64,000 nucleotides of DNA from a virus, in the IMG/VR virus record IMGVR_UViG_3300035670_000121, positions 21,616-85,615 of that record; one strand, 5' to 3'. Under the pieces are notes generated by a model. It was given only the letters and a program-made list of their open reading frames with translations. It had not been told where the DNA came from and did no database searches. The position numbers were made by a program, and so were the translations under genes. This document shows positions 5,751 through 23,306 of this stretch, piece by piece. Each line of letters opens with the position of its first letter. Within the stretch, counting starts at the first letter, position 1.

Positions 5751-6922
5751 GTAGAAAATCAAAAGACGAATCAACTGAAGCAGGAAGTATATTAACTTCT
5801 CAAGAACAGCTTAAAAGCTTTCTTAAGCAGAATAAAGAGTCGCATTATAATTTTGAAGAAACTATAGATTATCGCGTATCTAGCGGTAGTTTAATTTTTG
5901 ACTATAAACTAGGTGGCGGTTTAGGCACTGGATTGCATCGTTTTGTAGGTATGAACGAAGGCGGCAAGACTAGTTGCGCTTTACAATTCATGAAGAATTT
6001 TCTAGATACTCAAAAAGACGGTAAAGGTTTTTATATTAAAGCCGAAGGACGATTGAGTAAGGAAATGATTGAAAGGTCTGGTGTTAAGTTTGTTTTTTCA
6101 GAAGATGAATGGGTAAAAGGTACTTGTTTTGTATTTGAATCTAATATTTATGAAACTGTATTTGATGCGCTCAGACTTCTAGTTGGTAAAAATGATGAAA
6201 AGAATAGGTATTTCTTTTTGTTAGATTCTGTAGATGGTCTTATCAGAAAAGGCGATTTAGATAAGACTTTTGAAGAATCTCAAAAGGTTGCTGGTGGAGC
6301 CGTTATTGCCGCTGACTTAATGAAGCGCATGTCTATTTCGCTTCAAAAGCGTGGGCATATATGCATATTTATTTCACAGGTTCGTGCAGATATCAAGCTA
6401 GATCCATATAGCAAAGCTCCAATTCGTCAAACCAGCGCGACTGGCGGTAATGCACTATTGCATTTTGCGAATTGGATTATTGAATTCGAACCTCGTTTTA
6501 AAGGCGATCTAATTCTACAAGATGAAAAAGCTAACTATGATGAATATAAGAATCCTTATATTGGTCATGTTGTAAAAATAACAGTTAAAAAGTCAACTAA
6601 CGAAAAGACAAATTCTGTTATCAAATATCCAATTAGATACGGTCGCAAAAACGGAACATCAAATTGGATAGAAAAGGAGATATTTGATTTTCTATTAATG
6701 TGGAATTTTGCTGAACAAAAAGGAGCTTGGATAAATTTCGAAGAAGACTTTTTAAACATTCTTAAGGATGCAGGTTTTACAGATTTTCCTGAAAAGATTC
6801 AAGGGTCTGCAAAATTTGAAAATCTAATGAATGATAATGAAGCTTTGAAGAAGTTTTTGTTTAAATATATCAGTGAAAATCTACTAAGCTTTGGCGATGG
6901 AATTTCTGACGCTGACCAATAA
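5747..6922 (+). CDS. RecA/UvsX-like recombinase
   Basis: 391 residues. ATP-dependent strand-exchange protein expected to coat single-stranded DNA and drive recombination-dependent replication and repair. Seen: Walker A GMNEGGKT (residues 68-75), a Walker B-type strand FFLLDSVD, and the ISQVRADI segment followed by the TGGNALLHFANWIIEF region typical of phage RecA-like recombinases. It is slightly longer than E. coli RecA (353). Overlaps by 4 bases with the upstream gene and by 26 with the downstream nuclease gene, showing an operon. Confidence 0.93.
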   Translation: MSRKSKDESTEAGSILTSQEQLKSFLKQNKESHYNFEETIDYRVSSGSLIFDYKLGGGLGTGLHRFVGMNEGGKTSCALQFMKNFLDTQKDGKGFYIKAEGRLSKEMIERSGVKFVFSEDEWVKGTCFVFESNIYETVFDALRLLVGKNDEKNRYFFLLDSVDGLIRKGDLDKTFEESQKVAGGAVIAADLMKRMSISLQKRGHICIFISQVRADIKLDPYSKAPIRQTSATGGNALLHFANWIIEFEPRFKGDLILQDEKANYDEYKNPYIGHVVKITVKKSTNEKTNSVIKYPIRYGRKNGTSNWIEKEIFDFLLMWNFAEQKGAWINFEEDFLNILKDAGFTDFPEKIQGSAKFENLMNDNEALKKFLFKYISENLLSFGDGISDADQ

Positions 6923-7304
6923 AAAGAAACGATGTAAAAATCTTAAACGATATATCATAGATTGGGATATAGATAGCAGAAGTAAGTTCCAAACCAGTGT
7001 TAAAAAGTTTGTTAAAAAATACTGGTTTGGAAATATTGTTTTTGAAGAATTTCCAATTGTTGGTACTCGTTTAACATTAGATTTTTATAACGCTAATAAA
7101 AAAATTGCTATAGAAGTGCAAGGAAGACAACATACACAATATGTTGAGTTCTTTCATCAAGATCGTATTAATTATCTTCATCAATTGAAAAGAGACCAGA
7201 TAAAAGAGCGGTTTTGTGAACTAAATAATATAAAACTTGTAACTATTTACGAAAACGATATAATAAATACGTATCTATTTGAGTCTCAGGGTGTAATATT
7301 ATAA
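6897..7304 (+). CDS. Vsr/PD-(D/E)XK-type endonuclease
   Basis: 135 residues. A restriction-endonuclease-like core is visible: LTLDFYNANKKIAIEVQG supplies the Asp and E-x-Q metal-binding pair, with the conserved GRQH after it and a C-terminal RDQIKERFCELNNIKLV helix-strand. Related phage proteins sit in recombination loci; likely substrates are branched or nicked DNA, but specificity is not readable. Start chosen at ATG 6897; a TTG at 6891 is the alternative. It overlaps the recombinase end by 26 bases. Confidence 0.8.
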   Translation: MEFLTLTNKKKRCKNLKRYIIDWDIDSRSKFQTSVKKFVKKYWFGNIVFEEFPIVGTRLTLDFYNANKKIAIEVQGRQHTQYVEFFHQDRINYLHQLKRDQIKERFCELNNIKLVTIYENDIINTYLFESQGVIL

Positions 7305-7309: not shown

Positions 7310-7567
7310 ATGAAAAAACAACCGTCAGGTGAAGATTTTAAGAACTTTAAAATTCCAGATAATTATTTTAATAAATTATATGAGTTCACTGGATCTGATG
7401 AATCTTCTAAAGGGTTTATTGTTGCATACGTATCACAAGACGGTTGTCCTATGATTTATACAAAAGTTGCAAGTCCTCTTGTAGAAATGGGTTTAATTAA
7501 GGCTATAGAAAAATATTTAAACGAAATCGATAACGCTGAAGAATCTATTGACATGTCTGGAGATTGA
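7310..7567 (+). CDS. Hypothetical phage protein (85 aa)
   Basis: 85 residues with a small mixed alpha/beta pattern (GFIVAYVSQDGCPMIYTKV, then a helix MGLIKAIEKYLNEID). I do not recognise a named family. The 3' end contains the -35 box of the helicase promoter. Position between recombinase and helicase suggests a replication or recombination accessory role, by context only. Confidence 0.7.
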   Translation: MKKQPSGEDFKNFKIPDNYFNKLYEFTGSDESSKGFIVAYVSQDGCPMIYTKVASPLVEMGLIKAIEKYLNEIDNAEESIDMSGD

Positions 7568-11189: not shown

Positions 11190-11198
11190 CACTTGTAT

Positions 11199-11963
11199 AT
11201 GTTAGCTTTATTTAAGAGTTGCTATTCTATTGGTAAATCTATACTTACTTTAGATGATCCAAAGAAAACTTCGCCAGAGGGTTCTGACAGTATTTTTAAA
11301 ATTGCATTGGAAAACGATTTAAAAGAGATTATTCTGGTTGAGGATTCGTTGATTGGTTTTTTTGAAGCTTTTAAGAGATCAAAAGAGCTTAAGCTGAAAT
11401 TAATATTTGGATTAAGACTGTCGATGCGTAATTCTTCTTTGCCTGAAGACTCAGATAGTCAGCATAAAGTTATTATCTTTGCAAAAAATAGTGAAGGCTG
11501 CAAACTGCTAAATAAAATATATTCTAAAGCTTTTTGTGATTTTAGCGGTTTTTTGAATTATGAATCCCTTAAGGACTTATGGAATGACGATGATGTAAAA
11601 CTTGTTATTCCTTTTTATGATTCGTTTATACATGTTAATTCTTTATCTTTCGCAAATGCGATACCTGATTTCTCATTTACAAAGCCAACTTTCTTTTTAG
11701 AAGATAATGGTTTAGCGTTAGACATGCTTCTTCAAGAAAAGGTTTTAGAGTTTACAAAAAATAATAATTTTGAAACTCAAACGGCTAAAAGCATTTATTA
11801 TAAAAATAACGAAGATGTTGACGCTTTCATGACTTACAAGATTATTTGTAACAGAAGTCATGGAAAAGATCGGTCATTAGAAAAGCCTGAACTCGCTCAT
11901 TTTTGCAGCGATCAGTTTAGTTTTCAATCTTGGAAAAATAAAATTAATTATGGTCACTCTTAA
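11199..11963 (+). CDS. Stand-alone PHP-like domain of DNA polymerase III alpha, metal ligands lost
   Basis: 254 residues. Resembles the N-terminal PHP region of DnaE: a Ser-Ile-Gly segment after the first strand (FKSCYSIGKSILTL), EIILVEDSLIGFFEAF, a KLIFGLRLS strand and the later VIIFAKNSEGCKLLNKIYSKA block, typical of DnaE PHP insertions. The usual HxHT/HxHS metal-binding start is replaced by FKSCYS, so PHP phosphoesterase or proofreading activity is probably lost. It is separate from the polymerase core, which starts 1.7 kb downstream; it may bind it in trans. Start ATG 11199 fits the promoter better than TTG 11193. Confidence 0.8.
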   Translation: MLALFKSCYSIGKSILTLDDPKKTSPEGSDSIFKIALENDLKEIILVEDSLIGFFEAFKRSKELKLKLIFGLRLSMRNSSLPEDSDSQHKVIIFAKNSEGCKLLNKIYSKAFCDFSGFLNYESLKDLWNDDDVKLVIPFYDSFIHVNSLSFANAIPDFSFTKPTFFLEDNGLALDMLLQEKVLEFTKNNNFETQTAKSIYYKNNEDVDAFMTYKIICNRSHGKDRSLEKPELAHFCSDQFSFQSWKNKINYGHS

Positions 11964-12315
11964 AATTAACAATCAAAAAGAACAACTTGTTGCTTCTGAA
12001 GATATTAGTTCTGGAACAACTGTATTTGTTTCTAATTGGTTTGATCAGGAAACTAAGAATCCTTTTTATCTTCCTAAGTCAGAAATCAAGATACAAGATA
12101 AACCTTGTATTAGCACTGATGATCTATTTACTCCTGTATCGTTAACTAGCTTTGGTGAATACATCAAACCAGATGCTCAAAACTATAACACAACAGCTTT
12201 AATTGATTACAAAAACAAACAGGTTTCTTTTGTTGCGGTTAAAAACATTAAGAAAAACGACGAACTGGTTTATACTTTAAATATTAATTTTTTCCCTAAT
12301 GTTACGATTCAATAA
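11950..12315 (+). CDS. SET-domain-like small protein
   Basis: 121 residues. The N-terminal VASEDISSGTTVFV and C-terminal VAVKNIKKNDELVYTLN match the two conserved beta blocks that open and close SET methyltransferase domains (generic A.rdI..Ge..). The central NHS/C motif of active lysine methyltransferases is not present (KPDAQNYN instead), so activity is doubtful. It overlaps both neighbours (14 and 17 bases) and lies between two DNA polymerase parts. Its function in a polymerase locus is unclear; a modified binding module is the simplest idea. Confidence 0.6.
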   Translation: MVTLKINNQKEQLVASEDISSGTTVFVSNWFDQETKNPFYLPKSEIKIQDKPCISTDDLFTPVSLTSFGEYIKPDAQNYNTTALIDYKNKQVSFVAVKNIKKNDELVYTLNINFFPNVTIQ

Positions 12316-12928
12316 AGATCAAAAATATATTTGCTTTGATTTTGAAACTTGTCATCTCAATTTAGTCAATACAGACAATAAGCCTTGGCAATTAAGTTAT
12401 CTTATCGCAAAAGGCAATCAGATTATTAAAGAAGTAGATAATTATATTTATTGGCCTGATCTGAAATTGTCAGAAGGAGCTAAAGAGGTTACTCATTTTG
12501 ACGAAAGGCGGTATCATTCATTAGCTGCCGATCCCAAAGACATACTTTCTTCTTTTGAAGATTATATTTATGATAGCGACTATCTAATAGTAGGACAAAA
12601 TCTTCTTGGTTTTGACGTATACATACATAATATATACCGAAAACTTCTAGGTAAGTCGCCTGATTTTTCTTATGTTAAACGCATTCTCGATACAAATTGC
12701 ATCGCTAAAGCGATTAAAAAGAATATTAAACCACAAAAGGATTTAGACTTTACTTGTTGGCAGTATAGATTAAATGATTTCCGAGAAAAAGGATTAAAAA
12801 CAAGCATAAAAGCTCAATTAAAAGATTATAAGATTGATTTTGATGAGAGCATGTTGCATAATTCTATGTACGACGTTCAGATGAACTTCAAAATCTTTCA
12901 GAAGCAGCTTTGGCAAATCGAAATATGA
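12299..12928 (+). CDS. DEDDh 3'-5' exonuclease, proofreading type
   Basis: 209 residues. DnaQ-like exonuclease expected to proofread for the phage polymerase. ExoI motif CFDFETCHLN (Asp, Glu), ExoII VGQNLLGFDVYI (Asp) and ExoIII HNSMYDVQ (His and Asp five residues later) are in order and spacing. Its last codons overlap the polymerase start as ATGA (12925-12928), consistent with stoichiometric coupling of polymerase and exonuclease. Confidence 0.88.
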   Translation: MLRFNKDQKYICFDFETCHLNLVNTDNKPWQLSYLIAKGNQIIKEVDNYIYWPDLKLSEGAKEVTHFDERRYHSLAADPKDILSSFEDYIYDSDYLIVGQNLLGFDVYIHNIYRKLLGKSPDFSYVKRILDTNCIAKAIKKNIKPQKDLDFTCWQYRLNDFREKGLKTSIKAQLKDYKIDFDESMLHNSMYDVQMNFKIFQKQLWQIEI

Positions 12929-14685
12929 ATTTTTTACAAGATATTCAGAGTTATGACGACGCAATGTTGCCGGGTGTAAGATTGCCTCAAATATCAATCG
13001 ATAGTAAATATTATGATTTACTGAAGATTCCAACGTCTTCAGATAATTTTACTTTTCTTAAAACTTTATGCTATCGCAGTTTAGAGAATAAGAATCTAAA
13101 TAAGAAAGAGTATGTAGATAGATTAGAGATGGAGTTGCAGATTTTTCATGAACTTGATTTCGTTGATTATGTGTTACTGAATTGGGACATTCTTAATTTC
13201 TGTCACGAAAATAATATTCCAACTGGTCCCGGTCGAGGTAGCGCTGCGGGTTCATTGGTTTTGTTTTTGGTTGATGTCACTAAAGTAGATCCAATTCGAT
13301 ATGGACTTTTCTTTGAGCGATTTGTGAGTAAGTCTCGCGCAAAGAAGATTATCAAAAACGATATTACATATCTTGATGGCTCGCTATTGCCAGACGTAGA
13401 TAACGACATTAGTTATGATCGCAGAAGTGAGGTTATTAAATATATTGAAAACAAGCATTTTGGTAAAACTTCAAAAATCTTAACTCTTAATACTTTATCT
13501 AGTAAACTTTGTATCAAAGAGTGCGGTAAAATTGTTGGCGGTTATTCTGAAACGGAAGTAAACGAAATTAGCGATCTAATTCCAAAACAATTCGGTCGCG
13601 TTTTTGGCTTAGAAGAAGCCGCTAAGGAAAACGATAAGTTTAAAAAGTGGTGCGACGATAATCCTAAGCTATTTAAAATAGCTAAGAAAATTGAAGGCTT
13701 AAACAAGAATACTGGTGTTCATCCTTCTGGTATTGCTATTTCTTATTACAAGATAGATGAAGTTTGTCCTGTTCAGAAAACTTCAGATGGAGATTTAGTT
13801 AGCGGATATGATATGAATTATGTCGCTGAACTAATGGTAAAATTTGATGTTCTTGGATTAAGAACTTTAACTGTTGTTAATGAAGTATGCAAAATGTTGA
13901 ACATGGATATGACAAGTATCGATCCTGAAGATCCATTTATATATGAAAATTTGCAAAATCTAAAGACTCCTCAAGGTTTATTCCAAATTGAAGCTGATAC
14001 TAACTTTAAAGTCTGTAAAAAAGTTAGACCAAAGTCGCTTGAACAATTAAGCGCTGTTATTGCTATTGCTAGGCCGGGTGCATTAGATTTTGCTGATCAA
14101 TACGCCACTTATTCGGCGTCTACAATAGCGCAAGTAGTTCATGATTTTTTTCAAGAAGAATTATTATACACTGGTGGTATTCCTCTGTATCAAGAACAGT
14201 TAATGAAAATGGCTGTACGCTTAGGATTTACTCTGGATGAAGCTGAACAATTAAGACGTATTGTCGGCAAGAAGAAGGTAGACCAAATGCCTCAATGGCA
14301 AGGAAAAATTCGTCAAAAAGTCATTGAACAGAATCTTGATCCTGCTATTGGTGATGTATTATGGAAAGTTGCAGAAGATTCTGCCAATTATAGTTTTAAT
14401 AAATGTTTATTACCTGAAACCCTGGTTGAAACGAAATCTGGATTTAAATGTTTAAATGATGTCAAAAAAGGAGAAATGGTTTTAGCGTATGATGTTGATA
14501 ATGATAAAGATCATTATGTAGAAGTTGTAAACATTCATCAAAATGAAGTTGAAGTTTACGAAGTAGAAATGGAAGACGGAACAAAAATATCATGTTCTAT
14601 GGATCATAAGTTTCTATGTCAAGACAGAAAAATGCACACTCTTAGAGAAATAATTTCCCATAATTTAGAAATTATGTGTAAATAA
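12925..14685 (+). CDS. dnaE: DNA polymerase III alpha, N half, fused to split N-intein
   Basis: Residues 1-493 (to base 14403) are the palm, thumb and fingers of a bacterial C-family polymerase without PHP: GPGRGSAAGSLV, catalytic Asp pair in LLPDVDNDIS, third Asp in VKFDVLGLRTLT. The protein stops being polymerase after YSFNK; Cys at 14404 starts 93 residues of N-intein: block A (CLLPETLVET) and block B (GTKISCSMDHKFLC). It then ends, so the gene is broken at the conserved FNK/SHS site. The C half lies beyond an endonuclease gene (from 15619). Protein trans-splicing is needed to make a full polymerase. Start ATG 12925 is coupled to the exonuclease stop. Confidence 0.93.
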   Translation: MNFLQDIQSYDDAMLPGVRLPQISIDSKYYDLLKIPTSSDNFTFLKTLCYRSLENKNLNKKEYVDRLEMELQIFHELDFVDYVLLNWDILNFCHENNIPTGPGRGSAAGSLVLFLVDVTKVDPIRYGLFFERFVSKSRAKKIIKNDITYLDGSLLPDVDNDISYDRRSEVIKYIENKHFGKTSKILTLNTLSSKLCIKECGKIVGGYSETEVNEISDLIPKQFGRVFGLEEAAKENDKFKKWCDDNPKLFKIAKKIEGLNKNTGVHPSGIAISYYKIDEVCPVQKTSDGDLVSGYDMNYVAELMVKFDVLGLRTLTVVNEVCKMLNMDMTSIDPEDPFIYENLQNLKTPQGLFQIEADTNFKVCKKVRPKSLEQLSAVIAIARPGALDFADQYATYSASTIAQVVHDFFQEELLYTGGIPLYQEQLMKMAVRLGFTLDEAEQLRRIVGKKKVDQMPQWQGKIRQKVIEQNLDPAIGDVLWKVAEDSANYSFNKCLLPETLVETKSGFKCLNDVKKGEMVLAYDVDNDKDHYVEVVNIHQNEVEVYEVEMEDGTKISCSMDHKFLCQDRKMHTLREIISHNLEIMCK

Positions 14686-14689
14686 TAGT

Positions 14690-15637
14690 ATGAACAATGT
14701 TAAATATAATGATTCAATAAAATTCATATCTATTAATTATTTCGATATATGTCAGCTTGATGGAAAATCAAAAAAAGAAATAATTAATTTATTTCCTAAA
14801 AGGCAAGATGGTGCTTATTATTTGAATAAATTTATTAATTATATCGAAAAATATTATAAAATTTCAATTCAAGAATATGTATTTAAATATTTAAATATTA
14901 AATGGCCTACATGCCCAGTTTCAAAAGAAAAAGTTGGTTTTCGAGTTAACGGAAAAGGAATTTTCTTTTCAAAATTTAAAAAGGGTAAAGTTTGTAAAAA
15001 ATATTCTACAGCTTTTCAAAAAGCTTGCGAAAAATTTTCTCAAAATAGAAAAGGTAAAAACAATCCAATGTTCGGAAAAAAATCTTGGAATTCGGGTTTA
15101 TCAAAAGACTCTGACGCGAGAATAAAAAAAATATCCGACGAACGAAAAGGAATTGTTTTTAAGCAAACACATAAAAATAAACTCAAAGAAGCTAGAGCAA
15201 ATCATCCGTTAAAAGCTCGGCACGTCACTAAACATACTGATGAGTCTAAGAAAAAAATGAGAGAAGCCACTATTAATAGATGGCAAAAAGGTGATTTTAA
15301 TTTTAAAAAAACAAGTATAGAAAAAAAAGTTGAACAATGGTTGTTAGATAATAAGATCGATTTTCAATTTCAATATAATGTTGATTATTTTATAGCTGAT
15401 TTTGCTTGTTTGAATGAAAAAATCTTGATAGAATGCCAAGGTGATTTTTTTCATTGTAACCCTCATTTTGAAAAATATAAAAATCCAAAATATGAAGTTC
15501 AAAAGAGAAATGTTTTTCGAGATAAAATAAAAAAACAAAAATACAAGCAATTAGGTTGGAAACTTATAGAATTATGGGAATCAGATATTAATTCTGGCGA
15601 ATTTAAAAATATACTAAAATGCGAACTCAAAAAATAA
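14690..15637 (+). CDS. EDxHD/Vsr-like homing endonuclease inside fractured dnaE
   Basis: 315 residues, starting 4 bases after the N-intein stop and overlapping the C-intein gene by 19 bases. The middle has NUMOD3-like DNA-binding motifs (NNPMFGKKSWNSGLSKDS and a repeat near HTDESKKKMREA). The C-terminal ~100 residues form a Vsr-like nuclease: Glu in TSIEKKVEQWL, Asp in YFIADFACL, ECQGDFFHC, then a C-terminal GWKLIELWESDI. This matches the EDxHD family known from 'fractured genes' with split inteins. It presumably cuts intact dnaE alleles and spreads the break together with itself. Confidence 0.9.
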   Translation: MNNVKYNDSIKFISINYFDICQLDGKSKKEIINLFPKRQDGAYYLNKFINYIEKYYKISIQEYVFKYLNIKWPTCPVSKEKVGFRVNGKGIFFSKFKKGKVCKKYSTAFQKACEKFSQNRKGKNNPMFGKKSWNSGLSKDSDARIKKISDERKGIVFKQTHKNKLKEARANHPLKARHVTKHTDESKKKMREATINRWQKGDFNFKKTSIEKKVEQWLLDNKIDFQFQYNVDYFIADFACLNEKILIECQGDFFHCNPHFEKYKNPKYEVQKRNVFRDKIKKQKYKQLGWKLIELWESDINSGEFKNILKCELKK

Positions 15638-16806
15638 TTTCAATTAAATCTTTAGGAAAAAGAAAAACTTTAGATTTAGAAGTAAATCATAAAGATCATA
15701 ATTTTTATGCTGAAGGTCTTGTTTCGTCAAATTCACATTCCATAAGCTATGCTATTCTTGCGGCTTGGACGACTTACTTGAAGTTTAAACATCCAAAAGA
15801 ATTTTTTCTAGCTTTATTGAAGCTTTCTAAGTTTGAGCCTGATTCTCATAAAGAAATTAATAAAATATCAAAAGAGTTAATGTTTTTTGATATTGAATTG
15901 CTTCCTCCTGACTTAGCTAAATCTGCAATCGATTTTAATATTGAAGATAAGAATATTCGATTTGGATTAAATTCTATCAAAGGTGTTTCAGAAAAGACGC
16001 TTGAATCACTTCAGCAATTTAGAGAAACCAATACTCCTAATAAGTTCGATATCTTTATTACAGCTAAACAAGCTGGAATCAATATTGGCTTATTGTCTTC
16101 TCTGATTCAAGCTGGAACATTAAGCTCTTATACTCATCGTAGATCAAGATTGGTTCTCGAAGCTCAAACGTTTAATCTACTTACAGACAAAGAAAAGAAG
16201 TACGCTTATTCTATTGGAGATAAATATAATTACGATATTCTCACAATCGTTAGCGAATGTGCTTTTAAGAATAAGAATATAAATCAAGATGGTAAGCCAT
16301 TCATGTCAGATAAAAGAAAGGCGACCTTCAAGAAAAAGTACGATGAGTATAAGAAAATATATGATCAAAACAAGAATCATGAAAAATTTGCTAATTGGGT
16401 ATTCGAAAACAAACTGCTTGGTTATACTCCATCTATTAAACTGAAAACTGTTTTTGAACAACCTGAAGCTACTTTTACTGATACTTTAGAATTTCAATCT
16501 ACTTTAAAGAATGATTTAGTTAAAATTGTTGGAGTTGTAGATGATGTTTATAAAGGAAAGAGTAAAAAGAGTAATAATCAATTCTTTAGAATTGCTTTGA
16601 AAGATGAAGTTGGAACCGTGATGGGTTTATTTATGGATGGTGGAAAAAAAGCTCGTTTATCAGAGTATTTAGAAGATGGCTTAAAGATTCCAGAAAAAGA
16701 AAACATTGTAGTTTTTACTGGACGAAAAGGTGATGATGTGTTATGGATAGAGAACATTGCAATACTTGATGATAAAATCTATATGAAGCTATCTGACGTA
16801 GAATGA
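15619..16806 (+). CDS. dnaE: Split C-intein fused to DNA polymerase III alpha, C half
   Basis: Residues 1-38 are a C-intein: a KRKTLDLEVN strand, HNFYAEGLVSSN block F/G ending in Asn38 (bases 15730-15732), with Ser in place of the usual penultimate His as in cyanobacterial DnaE inteins. Ser39 (15733) is the +1 extein nucleophile and begins SHSISYAILAAWTTYLK, the direct continuation of the N half. The remaining 357 residues hold the rest of the fingers, the HhH region and an OB fold (LVKIVGVVDDVY, GTVMGLFMDGG). Spliced polymerase would have about 850 residues without the PHP part. Overlaps the Clp gene by 4 bases. Confidence 0.93.
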   Translation: MRTQKIISIKSLGKRKTLDLEVNHKDHNFYAEGLVSSNSHSISYAILAAWTTYLKFKHPKEFFLALLKLSKFEPDSHKEINKISKELMFFDIELLPPDLAKSAIDFNIEDKNIRFGLNSIKGVSEKTLESLQQFRETNTPNKFDIFITAKQAGINIGLLSSLIQAGTLSSYTHRRSRLVLEAQTFNLLTDKEKKYAYSIGDKYNYDILTIVSECAFKNKNINQDGKPFMSDKRKATFKKKYDEYKKIYDQNKNHEKFANWVFENKLLGYTPSIKLKTVFEQPEATFTDTLEFQSTLKNDLVKIVGVVDDVYKGKSKKSNNQFFRIALKDEVGTVMGLFMDGGKKARLSEYLEDGLKIPEKENIVVFTGRKGDDVLWIENIAILDDKIYMKLSDVE

Positions 16807-19211
16807 AAAATTTAAATCTTACACCAAGAGCGCAAAAGCTTATCAAAGAAGCCTTGAAAGTGGCTTTAGCGCATAGAAACATTAGAATCACGCATCTTCA
16901 TTTATTTAATGCGTTTCTAAATCTTAGCAATAATCAAATAGAAGAAGCTTTTCTGCAATTTGAATTAGATGTAGTTAAGATAAAAGAAAAATGCTCAAAG
17001 TTTATAGATGACAACTATTCTGTAACAAATAAAAAGAACAATAAGCCTTCTTTAGCTGATGCAGCTAAATCCATTTTTACTTGCGCCAAAGAAATATCAG
17101 CAAAATTTGATCATAAATACATTGGACTTGAACATATTTTTCTAGCTATGTTTGAGGTTCAATATGATTTATTTCAATTGTTTTTATCTAGTATAGATTT
17201 TAATTTCGAAAATATTGTAGACTATATCGAAAGCAAATTAGAAGAAGATGATTTGATGTCTATTAAAGAAGACATCTCAAAACCAGAACAAAAGATGTCA
17301 GAATCTTTTGATGCTAGAAAATATAAAACACTTAATACATATGCTTCCAGTCTCAATGCACAAGTAATTTCTGGTAAGATTAATAATCTTCATATTAATG
17401 AAGAATTAATTAAAAAGATATCTGAAGTTCTTTGTAGAAAGACAAAGAATAATCCTTTGATTGTGGGTGAAGCTGGTGTCGGAAAAACGGCTTTAGTCGA
17501 ATCGCTAGCTCAAGCTATTGTAAATAATCAATGCTCTGATCTATTAGGATTGAAGCAGATTTATACATTGGATATACCAATGATGATTGCAGGTTGTAAA
17601 TATAGAGGAGAATTCGAAGAAAAGATCAAGAACTTATTAAAAGAAATAGTAAATGATCCTTATATCATCTTATTCATCGATGAAATCCATACAATCATTG
17701 GCGCTGGAAATCCAGAAAATGGGCATGATGTCGCTAATATATTAAAGCCTTATTTAGCTAGAGGAGAAATCAGTTGTATTGGCGCGACTACTTTTGATGA
17801 ATATCGTAAAACAATAGCTGATGATCCTGCATTAAGTCGGCGTTTTCAAATGATCAAGATCGAAGAACCGACAAAAGAGCAGACTTTCGACTTGATTAAA
17901 AATATTAAGAAAGATTATGAAACTTATCACATTATTGAGTTTACAGATGATATATTAAAATTTATTATTAATACTGCTGAAAAATACATTGAAGGTAGAT
18001 TTCCAGATAAAGCTTTAGACATTATTGATCAAGTAGGATCTAAAGCTAAGTTAAAGAATTTTACTAAAACGCCAGAAATGATTAAGATCGAAAGTAAAAT
18101 CATGAAGGCTGCTAAAAAAGATAAAATTGCAAGTGAAAATCAATTTACTCCAAATATCCAATCTCTTTTATCAAAATATCAAGGAGTTGTTGAAAAATTG
18201 GTTAACAAATTAAAGAGTAAAAAATATAAGATTACCGAGGATGATGTTTTACAAGTCGTATCTGATAAAACTAATATTCCTTTTAATGATTTAAAAAAGC
18301 AAGATTTTGAAAAAGTTCAACAAGTCAAAAAAGAACTTCAAGATAATGTTGTAGGTCAAAGTGAACAAATAGATCAAATATATAAATGTTTGATACGCGC
18401 TAAAGCTGGTTTTCGCAATCAGAATAAGCCGATATGTTCAATGTTGTTTGCGGGGTCAACTGGAATCGGTAAAACGATGACAGCCAAACTTCTGGCAACT
18501 AATCTTTTTGTTAATAAAAACAATTTCATCTTTATCGATATGTCAGAATATGCTGATAAAACAGCTGTAAATAAACTAATTGGTTCTAATCCAGGTTATA
18601 TTGGTTTTGATAAAGGTGGTGTTTTAACAGAAAAAGTCAGAAAGAATCCATATTCTTTAATTTTATTTGATGAAATCCAAAAAGCAGATGAAGAAGTTTT
18701 ATTCTTATTATTACAAATACTAGAAGAAGGAAAATTATCTGACTCCTCTGGAAAGATAATTGATTTCTCTAATAGCATTATTGTAATGACCACTAATGTT
18801 GGCGCTCAAGCGGTAAATAATAATTCTATTGGATTTGTTACTGCTAAAAATTCTATAAAAACTGATATTTTAAGTTCAGTAAAAAAATATTTTCCTCCTG
18901 ACTTATTAAATAGGTTAGACGAAATAGTTGTATTTAATCCATTACAAGAGTCTCAAATCAAAGTTATCATCGAAAAAGAAATGAATCAGTTCAAAAAAGA
19001 ACTGAGCGCTAAAAATATTGACATTGATTATTCAGAAGAAGTTATAATGTATGTATTCAAGAAAATTCAGTTTGATAATTTTGGCGCTAGACAAGTAATT
19101 AAAACTATTCAGCGCGAAATTCAAACTTTAATTGCAGAAAAAATATTAGAGAATAAAGAAATTTCTAATATAAAAATTACTGTAAAAGATAATAATATTT
19201 GTGTAACATAA
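16803..19211 (+). CDS. Clp/Hsp100 AAA+ unfoldase (ClpA/ClpC type)
   Basis: 802 residues. Two-ring AAA+ unfoldase. The Clp N-domain repeat occupies ~1-145. AAA1 has Walker A GEAGVGKT and Walker [14 protein letters not shown]2 has GSTGIGKT and [10 protein letters not shown]. The linker between them is short, unlike the long coiled coil of ClpB, so ClpA/ClpC type. In AAA2, [11 protein letters not shown] places an IGF tripeptide where ClpA/ClpX carry the loop that docks on ClpP. No ClpP is in the window, so it may recruit the host peptidase to degrade chosen proteins. Starts within the polymerase stop (ATGA). Confidence 0.93.
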
Positions 19212-19420: not shown

Positions 19421-20569
19421 ATGAGCGAATATAATCCTCTTTACAATGTCAACGCAAACAATGATGGCAAAAACGATACATTCGATTTTGCTATGCCTGA
19501 CATTCCAGATCCAGTAGAACCAGCACAAGTCGAATTAAAAGATAAAGACGCTGTAGGTTTTAAGTTTGGTTTTATTGGAGCTGGTCAAGGAGGAAGTAAA
19601 CTAGCAGAAACCTTTTCTCAAATTGGTTATGCTAGAGTTGGCGTAATTAATACTGCTGATCAAGATTTAGCAACTATCAATGTTAAAAACAAGTTGAAGT
19701 TTGGCGAGCAACAAGGCGCTGGCAAAAATAGAGAGTTCGCCAAACAAGCATTTATTAATCACAAAGAAGATGTAGTTGATTTTATTAAACAGTCTGTTGG
19801 AACTGATATAGATCGTGTGTTTGCTGTTGTTGGAGCTGGCGGTGGCACTGGAGCTGGTGTTTGTTCAGAATTAGTTAAAACTCTTAAAGAATATCAAACA
19901 ACAGTCAAAGCTACATCTCCATACGTTGGATTGATATTGGCGTTACCTAAGCTATCTGAAGGTAAGAAGGTAAGTGAAAACGCTTATGCTACACTAAAAG
20001 AAGCTTGTAAATTAGTTGAAGATAAAATCGTTTCTCCATTAATTATTCTAGATAATGAAAAGATTAATAACTTATATCCTAAATTATCTGTAAATAAGTT
20101 CTGGCAAGTAGCAAATGCTAATATTTGTGCGTTATTTCATTTATTTAATAATATTATAACTAAAAATAGTCAATATAGTACATTTGATACAAATGATTTT
20201 CGTACTGTTTTAGATTCTGGTATTATGGTGTTTGGCGCAGCTAATATCACTGAATTTAAAAATGAAGCTGAAATTTCTAAAGCTGTTAGAGAAAATCTAA
20301 AGCGTAACGTTCTCTGTGGTGAATTAGATCTAGCTACTGGCAGTGTTGCTGCCGCTGTAGCAATCGGTGATGAAAAAACTCTAGATAGTATTCCTCAAGA
20401 ATATCTAGATAACGCTTTCAATCAATTAAATAGAACTCTAAAAACTAATAGCACAGTTCATCAAGGCATTTATAAAGGCGTTAAAGATGGTTTATCTATA
20501 TTTACTGCTATTGGTGGTATATCAACTCCAAATGGTAAATTAGAAGCGCTTCTAAAAGCTAGTCAATAA
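19421..20569 (+). CDS. FtsZ/tubulin-like GTPase
   Basis: 382 residues. Tubulin-superfamily GTPase expected to form dynamic filaments. GFIGAGQGGSKLAE opens the Rossmann-like GTP domain; the signature GAGGGTGAG (residues ~138-146) is intact; NTADQDL resembles the T3 region; and FDTNDFRTVLDSGIMVFG matches the T7 synergy-loop/H8 area that completes the GTP site of the next subunit. The first ~40 residues are a Pro/Asp/Asn-rich disordered tail. In jumbo phages PhuZ tubulin centres the phage nucleus or moves capsids; this one looks nearer to FtsZ in motifs, so the role could also be interference with host division. Confidence 0.88.
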   Translation: MSEYNPLYNVNANNDGKNDTFDFAMPDIPDPVEPAQVELKDKDAVGFKFGFIGAGQGGSKLAETFSQIGYARVGVINTADQDLATINVKNKLKFGEQQGAGKNREFAKQAFINHKEDVVDFIKQSVGTDIDRVFAVVGAGGGTGAGVCSELVKTLKEYQTTVKATSPYVGLILALPKLSEGKKVSENAYATLKEACKLVEDKIVSPLIILDNEKINNLYPKLSVNKFWQVANANICALFHLFNNIITKNSQYSTFDTNDFRTVLDSGIMVFGAANITEFKNEAEISKAVRENLKRNVLCGELDLATGSVAAAVAIGDEKTLDSIPQEYLDNAFNQLNRTLKTNSTVHQGIYKGVKDGLSIFTAIGGISTPNGKLEALLKASQ

Positions 20570-21420: not shown

Positions 21421-23306
21421 TGCGTAAAAAAAGAATTCTTATTCATAGTAATCATTGCAAAATGTTTACCGGATTCGGTAAGCATAAGAAAAATTTGTTA
21501 AAATATTTGCACAACACAGGTAAATACGAAATCATTGAATTCAGTAATGGTTATCCGTGGTCTTCTGATGAGTTGCAGTATACTCCTTGGAAAAGCTATG
21601 GATCTTTACCTGATGATCCTGAACATCAAAAAGAAATAGCTAACGACGAAAGAAAAAAATCAACTGCTGGTTATGGCGGTGAAATGATTGATCGGGCTAT
21701 TTATGAATTAAAACCTGGTATTTATTTAGGAATAGAAGATATTTGGGGATTTAATGGATTTTTTGAAAAGCCTTGGTGGAACAAGATTCATTGTATTATA
21801 CATACAACACTAGATAGTTTGCCTATTTTGCCAGACGCTGTAAATGTCGCGTCTAAAATAAAAAATTATTTTGTATGGGCAAGTTTTGCAGAAAAAGCTT
21901 TACACAAATTAGGTCATACACATGTTAAAACAGTACATGGAACGTTAGATGTTAATAATTTCTATAGACTTCCAGACGATGCTCGTTCAAGACTTAGAAA
22001 ACATTTTAATCTAGAAAAAAGTTTTATAATTGGATTTGTATTTAGAAATCAACTAAGAAAATCAGTCCCTAATTTGCTTGATGGATTCAAAATGTTTGAT
22101 GAAGCAAATCCATCTGCTAACGCTAAATTATTATTGCATACATTTTGGAACGAAGGTTGGGATATTCATAGATTATTAAAAGAAAAGGACATTCCTCTTA
22201 ATAAAGTACTTACAACTTATTATTGTAAAAACTGTTACAATTATCATATCAAGCCATTTCAAGGGCAGATTTTAAAATGCGATTATTGTCAACATCCTAA
22301 TTCATGCGAAACAACAAATATTAAAAGTGGCGTAAATGAACAACAGTTGAATGAGATTTATAATTTAATGGATGTTTATTGCCATCCTTTTACAAGCGGT
22401 GGACAAGAAATACCTATTCAAGAAGCAAAACTTACTGAACTGATAACATTAGTAACTAATTATAGTTGTGGTGAAGATTCTTGTAGCTCTGAAAGCGGCG
22501 GCTTCCCTTTAGACTGGGCTGAATACCGAGAACCCGGTACTCAATTTATTAAAGCTTCAACACTACCTACAAGCATTAATGAAAAATTAAAAATGGTATA
22601 CGAAATGGCTTTTGATGAAAAAGTATTACTTGGTAAAAAATCACGTAACTATGTAATCAATAAATATAGTATTGAAATCGTAGGAAAATATTTTGAAGAT
22701 TTATTTGATTCATTTCCTGAAGTCGAATTTGATTATGAGAAAGTGGATATGACTCCAAATGCATATTTTGAACCCAACAATTCTTTAAATGATAAAGAAT
22801 GGATTGAGTCATTGTATGAAAATCTTTTAAAACGAAAAGATTCGTCTGGCGTTATTCATTGGTTGCAACGCTTGAAGACTGATTTAAAAAGACAAGATGT
22901 ATTAACTTATTTTAGAAAAGTTGCGCTATCAGAAATACAAAAAGCTGAATTTGAGAAAATGCTCAAAATTCTAAATGAAGATAAAAGTCTTAAGAAAATC
23001 GCTTATATTCAACCTGATGGAGCTGAAGAAGTTTTGATCGCTACATCAATTCTTCCTTCTATTCAAAAAGTTTATCCTGACCATAAAATTTATTTCTTTA
23101 CAAAAAGCGAGAATTTCGATTTAATAAATTCACATCCAAATGTTTATAAAACATTATCGTATTTTAATAAATTAGATGATCCTCTTTACCTAGAAGGAAA
23201 AGGCAATTTAAATAAATATTTTGATATTGTATTTGCTCCGTATTTATCAATTAGAAACAATTATTTTAGAAACGCTCAAGATATTTTAGAGTATCAAACA
23301 ACATGA
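21420..23306 (+). CDS. Multi-domain glycosyltransferase: GT4 - zinc ribbon - DUF4214 - GT9-like N part
   Basis: 628 residues. Residues 1-430 form a GT-B glycosyltransferase of the GT4 kind, with HPFTSGGQEIPIQEAK as the donor-binding E-x7-E region; a zinc ribbon is inserted (Cys269, 272, 287, 290). Residues ~455-500 match DUF4214 (IESLYENLLKRKDSSG). From ~525 a new Rossmann fold starts (AYIQPDGAEEVLIATSILPS), like the N-terminal half of GT9 heptosyltransferases. The matching C-terminal half seems to be in the next gene, which overlaps by 4 bases. Likely modifies virion or host surface glycans, or phage DNA. Confidence 0.82.
   Translation: MRKKRILIHSNHCKMFTGFGKHKKNLLKYLHNTGKYEIIEFSNGYPWSSDELQYTPWKSYGSLPDDPEHQKEIANDERKKSTAGYGGEMIDRAIYELKPGIYLGIEDIWGFNGFFEKPWWNKIHCIIHTTLDSLPILPDAVNVASKIKNYFVWASFAEKALHKLGHTHVKTVHGTLDVNNFYRLPDDARSRLRKHFNLEKSFIIGFVFRNQLRKSVPNLLDGFKMFDEANPSANAKLLLHTFWNEGWDIHRLLKEKDIPLNKVLTTYYCKNCYNYHIKPFQGQILKCDYCQHPNSCETTNIKSGVNEQQLNEIYNLMDVYCHPFTSGGQEIPIQEAKLTELITLVTNYSCGEDSCSSESGGFPLDWAEYREPGTQFIKASTLPTSINEKLKMVYEMAFDEKVLLGKKSRNYVINKYSIEIVGKYFEDLFDSFPEVEFDYEKVDMTPNAYFEPNNSLNDKEWIESLYENLLKRKDSSGVIHWLQRLKTDLKRQDVLTYFRKVALSEIQKAEFEKMLKILNEDKSLKKIAYIQPDGAEEVLIATSILPSIQKVYPDHKIYFFTKSENFDLINSHPNVYKTLSYFNKLDDPLYLEGKGNLNKYFDIVFAPYLSIRNNYFRNAQDILEYQTT

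Follow-up and report, generated by a model that had tools for sequence, protein, structure and literature searches.

In a 64,000-nucleotide stretch of viral DNA (IMG/VR record IMGVR_UViG_3300035670_000121, positions 21,616 to 85,615; hereafter the window), the gene for the alpha subunit of DNA polymerase III (pol III) is interrupted by a 1,329-bp insertion that carries the two halves of a split intein with the gene for a Vsr-like nuclease between them. This insertion is very probably a mobile split-intein cassette, in which the intein halves would restore the polymerase by trans-splicing while the nuclease would drive homing. The layout, a coding region continued over two genes with an N- and a C-intein on the pieces and a free-standing endonuclease gene in the break, is that of a "fractured gene", as had been proposed from the DNA letters alone (the original prediction), and the cassette is an additional member of this known arrangement.

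Anatomy of the interrupted polymerase gene

The first polymerase reading frame opens at ATG 12925, contains the motifs PDVDND and KFDVLGL, and reaches DSANYSFNK before running into the Cys1 of the N-intein and a stop codon (Table 1); the coordinates and the intein model TIGR01445 agree with the original prediction here. Its two other structural claims were also borne out. The separate endonuclease gene was recovered as an open reading frame (ORF) with matches to TIGR00632, PDB entry 3r3p and the Vsr fold, and the C-intein ending SSN is joined to SHSISYA, the exact continuation of the polymerase, since the flanks rejoin to the uninterrupted frame of a relative described below. Pol III models likewise take up the C-extein where the N-extein ends (749/749 in TIGR00594, 751/752 in PRK05673). 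By arithmetic from the coordinates, the joined polymerase, whose splicing is predicted, comes to 493 + 357 = 850 aa, the length that had been anticipated.

The start of the C-intein lies inside the 3' end of the endonuclease gene, as it does in the relatives bearing a Vsr-like gene; in the window the overlap is 19 nt (15619-15637). The cassette is poorer in GC than the exteins (25.8% versus 32.8%). The interrupted gene encodes the polymerase core and C-terminus only; the PHP domain and a DnaQ-like exonuclease are encoded by genes of their own, which are likewise separate in phages with an empty site.

Table 1. Features of the interrupted polymerase locus (window coordinates).
Feature	Position	Strand	Evidence or remark
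PHP domain of polymerase, separate gene	11193..11963	+	PF02811 E=4.2e-6
DnaQ-like 3'-5' exonuclease gene, directly upstream of polymerase	12299..12928	+	PF00929 E=2.1e-6
N-extein: pol III alpha (DnaE-type) NTPase/palm and most of fingers, 493 aa	12925..14403	+	PF07733 E=6.7e-61; PF17657 E=1.5e-29
Co-converted tract upstream of insertion	14014..14403		Maximum-likelihood change point at 349 nt upstream of the junction; differences stay dense to ~390 nt
Complete mobile cassette (probable), 1329 bp	14404..15732	+	Absent at L002 empty site
N-intein of 93 aa with Cys1 and block B S-M-D-H; TAA stop at 14683-14685	14404..14682	+	TIGR01445, PDB profile, AlphaFold2 model
Putative homing endonuclease of 315 aa, Vsr-like (EDxHD family), with a weak NUMOD3 motif	14690..15637	+	TIGR00632, 3r3p profile, Foldseek; NUMOD3 E=0.0013
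C-intein, 38 aa, own ATG, terminus Ser-Ser-Asn	15619..15732	+	TIGR01443, gp41-1 profile match
C-extein: rest of pol III alpha, 357 aa, starts SHSISYA (+1 Ser)	15733..16806	+	HHH_6 E=4.6e-15; PRK05673, TIGR00594
Short right-hand part of converted tract	15733..15747		Five synonymous wobble differences in 15 nt

Identity of the intein halves and the nuclease

Both halves scored above the cut-offs of the intein models, the N-half alone with 27.5 bits against intein_Nterm (TIGR01445, cut-off 24.5) and the C-half with 19.5 bits against intein_Cterm (TIGR01443, cut-off 15.6). In the Protein Data Bank (PDB), a profile built from 15 related N-inteins matched DnaE inteins best (E=2.5e-12), with gp41-1 at 1.9e-9, and the C-intein profile matched gp41-1 (6qaz_A, E=9.2e-6) and also Npu DnaE. 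An AlphaFold2 model of the N-half (mean predicted local distance difference test score 86.9) superimposed on Npu DnaE (4lx3_A) with a template-modelling (TM) score of 0.81. A Hint fold is thus supported by model and fold comparison for the N-half and by sequence profile for the C-half; the profile and structure comparison that the original prediction had named as a check was in its favor.

The residues of a class 1 intein are present: Cys1 and His68 are invariant among the 15 N-inteins, Asn38 is invariant in the C-intein, and the +1 residue of the window is Ser. The penultimate His, a common but non-defining intein trait, is missing. As had been noted, Ser stands in its place, but this is a trait of the family (42 of 43 members among the matches listed, window included) and not a peculiarity of the window, and the Npu DnaE C-intein likewise ends in Ser-Asn. 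We therefore rejected the idea that the penultimate Ser marks a damaged intein. No further inteins were found in the 64-kb window.

The nuclease ORF matched the Vsr model TIGR00632 with E=1.7e-6, below that model's cut-off, and the best PDB match of its profile was the EDxHD homing endonuclease I-Bth0305I (3r3p, E=2.6e-5). Foldseek placed the nuclease model with the same structure (TMt 0.78) and with Vsr itself (1cw0, E=1.5e-4). Asp237, Glu248 and Asp278 are invariant in an alignment of nine sequences and the His of GDFFH is present in eight; conservation of the leading Glu (TSIE) is not universal. Judged from this alignment, the three invariant residues and the near-invariant His fit a Vsr-type active site.

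The empty site and the converted flank

Another IMG/VR record, L002, is 95.8% and 95.0% identical to the window on the two flanks and has an exact empty site between its positions 7479 and 7480. Compared with this sister, the window has 1,329 bp inserted after the K codon and before the S codon, and its joined flanks give L002's unbroken frame. The comparison with insertion-free relatives that had been suggested as a way to define the homing site thus fixes the point of insertion.

The flank next to the insertion diverges sharply from L002. Divergence is 22.6% in the upstream tract and 1.4% beyond it, and none of 1,000 permutations was as extreme. Codon differences in the 390-nt tract comprise 56 synonymous and 11 nonsynonymous changes. 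Since the tract of L002 is nearer to the remaining clade (83.9% identity to clade member L003, versus 78.9% for the window), it is the window's tract that was imported. The insertion and its divergent flank are best read as the footprint of a recent homing event, which would have begun with cleavage of an empty site by the nuclease; for such cleavage the tract is indirect evidence. In a second pair, L015 and L027, no co-conversion tract was visible, divergence being uniform along the flank.

Several points weigh against this account. The donor phage of the tract was not found, the best match among all loci retrieved being 79.2%, and a divergent flank could also arise by ordinary phage recombination or chimeric assembly. 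The nuclease's matches to curated families are weak, and its model, though well predicted in the catalytic part, is of low confidence elsewhere (predicted TM score 0.38).

States of the intein at the FNK/SHS site

Scans of viral sequences and genomes yielded a family of at least 43 non-redundant inteins at this site (the slash marks the junction), the window's included. Endonucleases were assigned by ORF scans, motif searches and a custom profile, with families confirmed by Pfam for representatives. At least 22 of the inteins are split with a Vsr-like gene. Others are split with a LAGLIDADG gene (at least five), a degenerate LAGLIDADG gene (at least one), an opposite-strand GIY-YIG gene (at least one) or an opposite-strand ORF of no recognised family (at least one), and in at least two the N-intein continues in frame into an HNH domain, the C-intein having its own gene. 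At least six are split without a full endonuclease gene and at least five are contiguous; the notion that the family is always split was rejected when a wider scan turned up these contiguous inteins. Examples of the HNH fusion are L097 and L136, in which an HNH/NUMOD4 endonuclease is in frame with the N-intein and the C-intein remains a separate gene.

In L086 the 5' two-thirds of the nuclease gene are gone, whereas its sister L085 has that gene intact; the intein halves and exteins of L086 are undamaged. L086, L083 and L110 retain the last codons of a Vsr-like gene, running into the start of the C-intein. Because L086 and at least six split loci keep the halves without a full nuclease gene, the intein is probably retained for splicing.

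Among the matches listed, contiguous forms occur in four positions of the intein tree, of which three or more are forced. One of them, L164, is sister to the split, Vsr-bearing L161 with support of 99/93. The two share 259 of 270 nucleotides in the N-half and all 111 in the C-half, compared with 71% and 62% in the flanking 600 nt. Re-fusion after deletion of the nuclease gene is the simpler reading of this pair, because both group with split relatives; the reverse order is also possible.

We also observed a DnaE gene (L088:16-5579) with two split inteins, at MAGPGRG/SAGG and at YSFNK/SHA. The first has a C-intein ending AVHN and a 277-aa nuclease-like ORF (548-1381), and the second has a Vsr-like ORF. 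An extra break in the gene contains a DnaQ-like exonuclease, so that the polymerase is in at least four pieces.

Mobility and alternative explanations

On a tree of 75 polymerases, 63 of them with an empty site, the distribution of the intein calls for seven changes, all forced by well-supported (starred) branches. One transfer could be measured. The polymerase flanks of L015 and L096 are saturated at silent sites (proportion of synonymous differences 0.82), whereas synonymous divergence (dS) within the cassette is 0.57 for the N-intein, 0.53 for the nuclease and 0.38 for the C-intein, which argues that the cassette moved as a unit. The ratio of nonsynonymous to synonymous divergence (dN/dS) is 0.05-0.07, which indicates that nuclease and intein are both constrained.

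These data bear on an alternative in which general homologous recombination between phages brought in the cassette, with the nuclease a passenger and no endonuclease-driven homing. Cleavage does not follow from a divergent flank by itself, and several nuclease-free relatives are still scattered on the polymerase tree. This reading nevertheless seems improbable to us, as the nuclease is under strong purifying selection across that recent transfer (dN/dS 0.05), the tract is short and lies directly beside the insertion, and the same break has been filled by nucleases of at least four unrelated families.

The two polymerase pieces might instead be separate subunits that work unspliced, the intein halves being decayed relics of an earlier element. 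There is precedent for a divided enzyme, both in these phages, where the PHP domain and exonuclease are already separate proteins, and in a report, as cited in PMC10448857, of a phage ribonucleotide reductase gene that a homing endonuclease has divided, with both resulting peptides working. We regard relics as very unlikely, given that Cys1, the block B His, the C-terminal Ser-Asn and the +1 Ser are conserved over the family, intein dN/dS is ~0.06-0.09, the halves are maintained where the nuclease gene is lost, and inteins that are contiguous at this site have to splice in cis. A chimeric metagenome assembly of two co-occurring phages has no more claim: the window does come from a single assembled virus record, with sharp identity switches on both sides of the insertion (350-390 nt before it and 15 nt after it), but the three-gene layout recurs at the same codon in independent metagenomes, and a chimera would need two switches in ~1.7 kb, all frames intact, and a return to an L002-like genome.

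Proposed mechanism of splicing and homing

In the mechanism that we propose for the mobile cassette, the N-terminal half of the polymerase would be translated together with the N-intein up to its stop codon, the endonuclease on its own, and the C-intein with the rest of the polymerase from the ATG within the 3' end of the endonuclease gene. The intein halves would then associate as a Hint fold and trans-splice by attack of Cys1, transfer to Ser+1 and cyclisation of Asn, giving an 850-aa core that would act with the separate PHP and exonuclease proteins. Meanwhile, the Vsr-like nuclease would cut the conserved, uninterrupted YSFNK/SHSISYA coding DNA of a co-infecting phage, and repair of the cut DNA would copy the cassette together with some flank.

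The phage would probably depend on splicing for its replication. Each of 13 phage records contains a single pol III finger domain, and neither PolA nor PolB was found in the window's own record, such records being possibly incomplete. Shine-Dalgarno-like motifs precede 2 of 43 starts (+ strand ATG ORFs of at least 150 aa in the window; background 4.8%), and this near-background frequency suggests a host with non-Shine-Dalgarno initiation, such as Bacteroidota.

Chromosomal counterparts

The genome scan found that, among the matches listed, dnaE of Acidobacteriota is broken at FN(K or R)/SHS, the same site. Five such loci (L112, L114, L116, L117 and L120) have an ORF-containing stretch between N-intein and C-intein; the ORF of L112 is a LAGLIDADG endonuclease by Pfam, and those of the other loci are similar to it. 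Elsewhere the halves sit next to each other without an endonuclease ORF (G023), lie far apart on one contig (~1.44 Mb in G039, ~1.43 Mb in G044 and ~0.72 Mb in G035), or occupy different contigs (G061, G057 and G072). Further loci of this kind are L288/L290, L282-L287, L289 and L291-L295.

The original prediction had set the phage apart from chromosomal cases by its complete reliance on trans-splicing. This distinction did not hold: no second pol III finger domain was found in four of the five Acidobacteriota genomes above, nor in the cyanobacterial genome hit. Because the broken dnaE is the only such domain found there, these cells appear to depend on trans-splicing as much as the phage.

As a tentative model, which we favor less than its opposite, FNK/SHS could be a long-lived intein niche in which fracture is both reversible and repeated, endonucleases of at least four families are swapped or lost, and halves stay on as neighboring genes, re-fuse or disperse along a chromosome; fractured phage inteins could then be the source of the dispersed split DnaE of Acidobacteriota that has no endonuclease, and possibly a model for the cyanobacterial origin. 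No published account of a split DnaE in Acidobacteriota was found in a literature search that covered sources outside subscription, and both the reversible intein states and the Acidobacteriota series appear to be new.

Neighboring genes in the window

A free-standing 138-aa Vsr-like nuclease ORF (6888-7304) lies between RecA-like and DnaB-like genes and also within the collinear region of L002; its function may be in replication rather than in homing. The stretch of genes before the polymerase (11193-12928) includes a weak SET-domain match (PF00856 E=6e-4, below cut-off). Downstream are a ClpA/ClpB-like ATPase (16803-19211) and an FtsZ/tubulin-like protein (19421-20569; TIGR00065 E=1.6e-19).

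Significance and comparison with known systems

The relatives of this cassette make it testable how split inteins arise, shed their endonuclease and become permanent. They offer two near-identical phages, of which one carries the element and a tract that can still be read, sister pairs with intact or deleted nuclease and with split or contiguous intein, and cellular chromosomes in which the same site is fractured, adjacent without an endonuclease, or dispersed. They also provide a replicative polymerase whose assembly appears to be splicing-dependent, as well as natural split inteins ending in Ser-Asn, some near-identical in cis and trans form, for use in protein ligation.

Fractured genes were reportedly described by Dassa et al. 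in 2009 as conserved DNA-metabolism genes, of eight enzyme types and mostly in phages, that a split intein interrupts, with a separate endonuclease gene, often a Vsr-like one, between the halves. The layout here is the same; what the relatives add is an empty-site sister, a conversion tract, loss of the nuclease with the intein kept, and probably re-fused copies.

The split DnaE inteins of cyanobacteria (Npu, Ssp) share with the window the polymerase family, the Hint fold, the Ser-Asn end of the C-intein and the conserved loop in which they are inserted. In cyanobacteria, the +1 residue is Cys, the halves are far apart and there is no nuclease. Their site, Y/CFN, lies four residues upstream of the phage FNK/SHS, not three as had been predicted (FAEY/CLSYDTE in L118 versus NYSFNK/C in the phage), and the phage insertion is not at Y/CFN. 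I-Bth0305I, which the nuclease domain matches best in both sequence and fold, is encoded inside a group I intron, whereas the window's nuclease gene lies between split-intein halves.

Pseudomonas jumbo phage MIJ3 carries a split PolB intein with an HNH endonuclease (PMC6892783, which also cites the 2009 work on fractured genes). It resembles the window in that two genes encode a phage replicative polymerase and a nuclease gene separates the split-intein halves; it differs in the polymerase family (B), the nuclease (HNH) and the intein. In Campylobacter phages with a fractured nrdA, such as CP20 (L126), a related N-intein (47% identity over 73 aa) ends one nrdA gene and a C-intein starts the next, but the enzyme is a ribonucleotide reductase and the halves are separated by two unannotated ORFs of no recognised family. 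CP20 is a cultured phage and thus a possible laboratory system.

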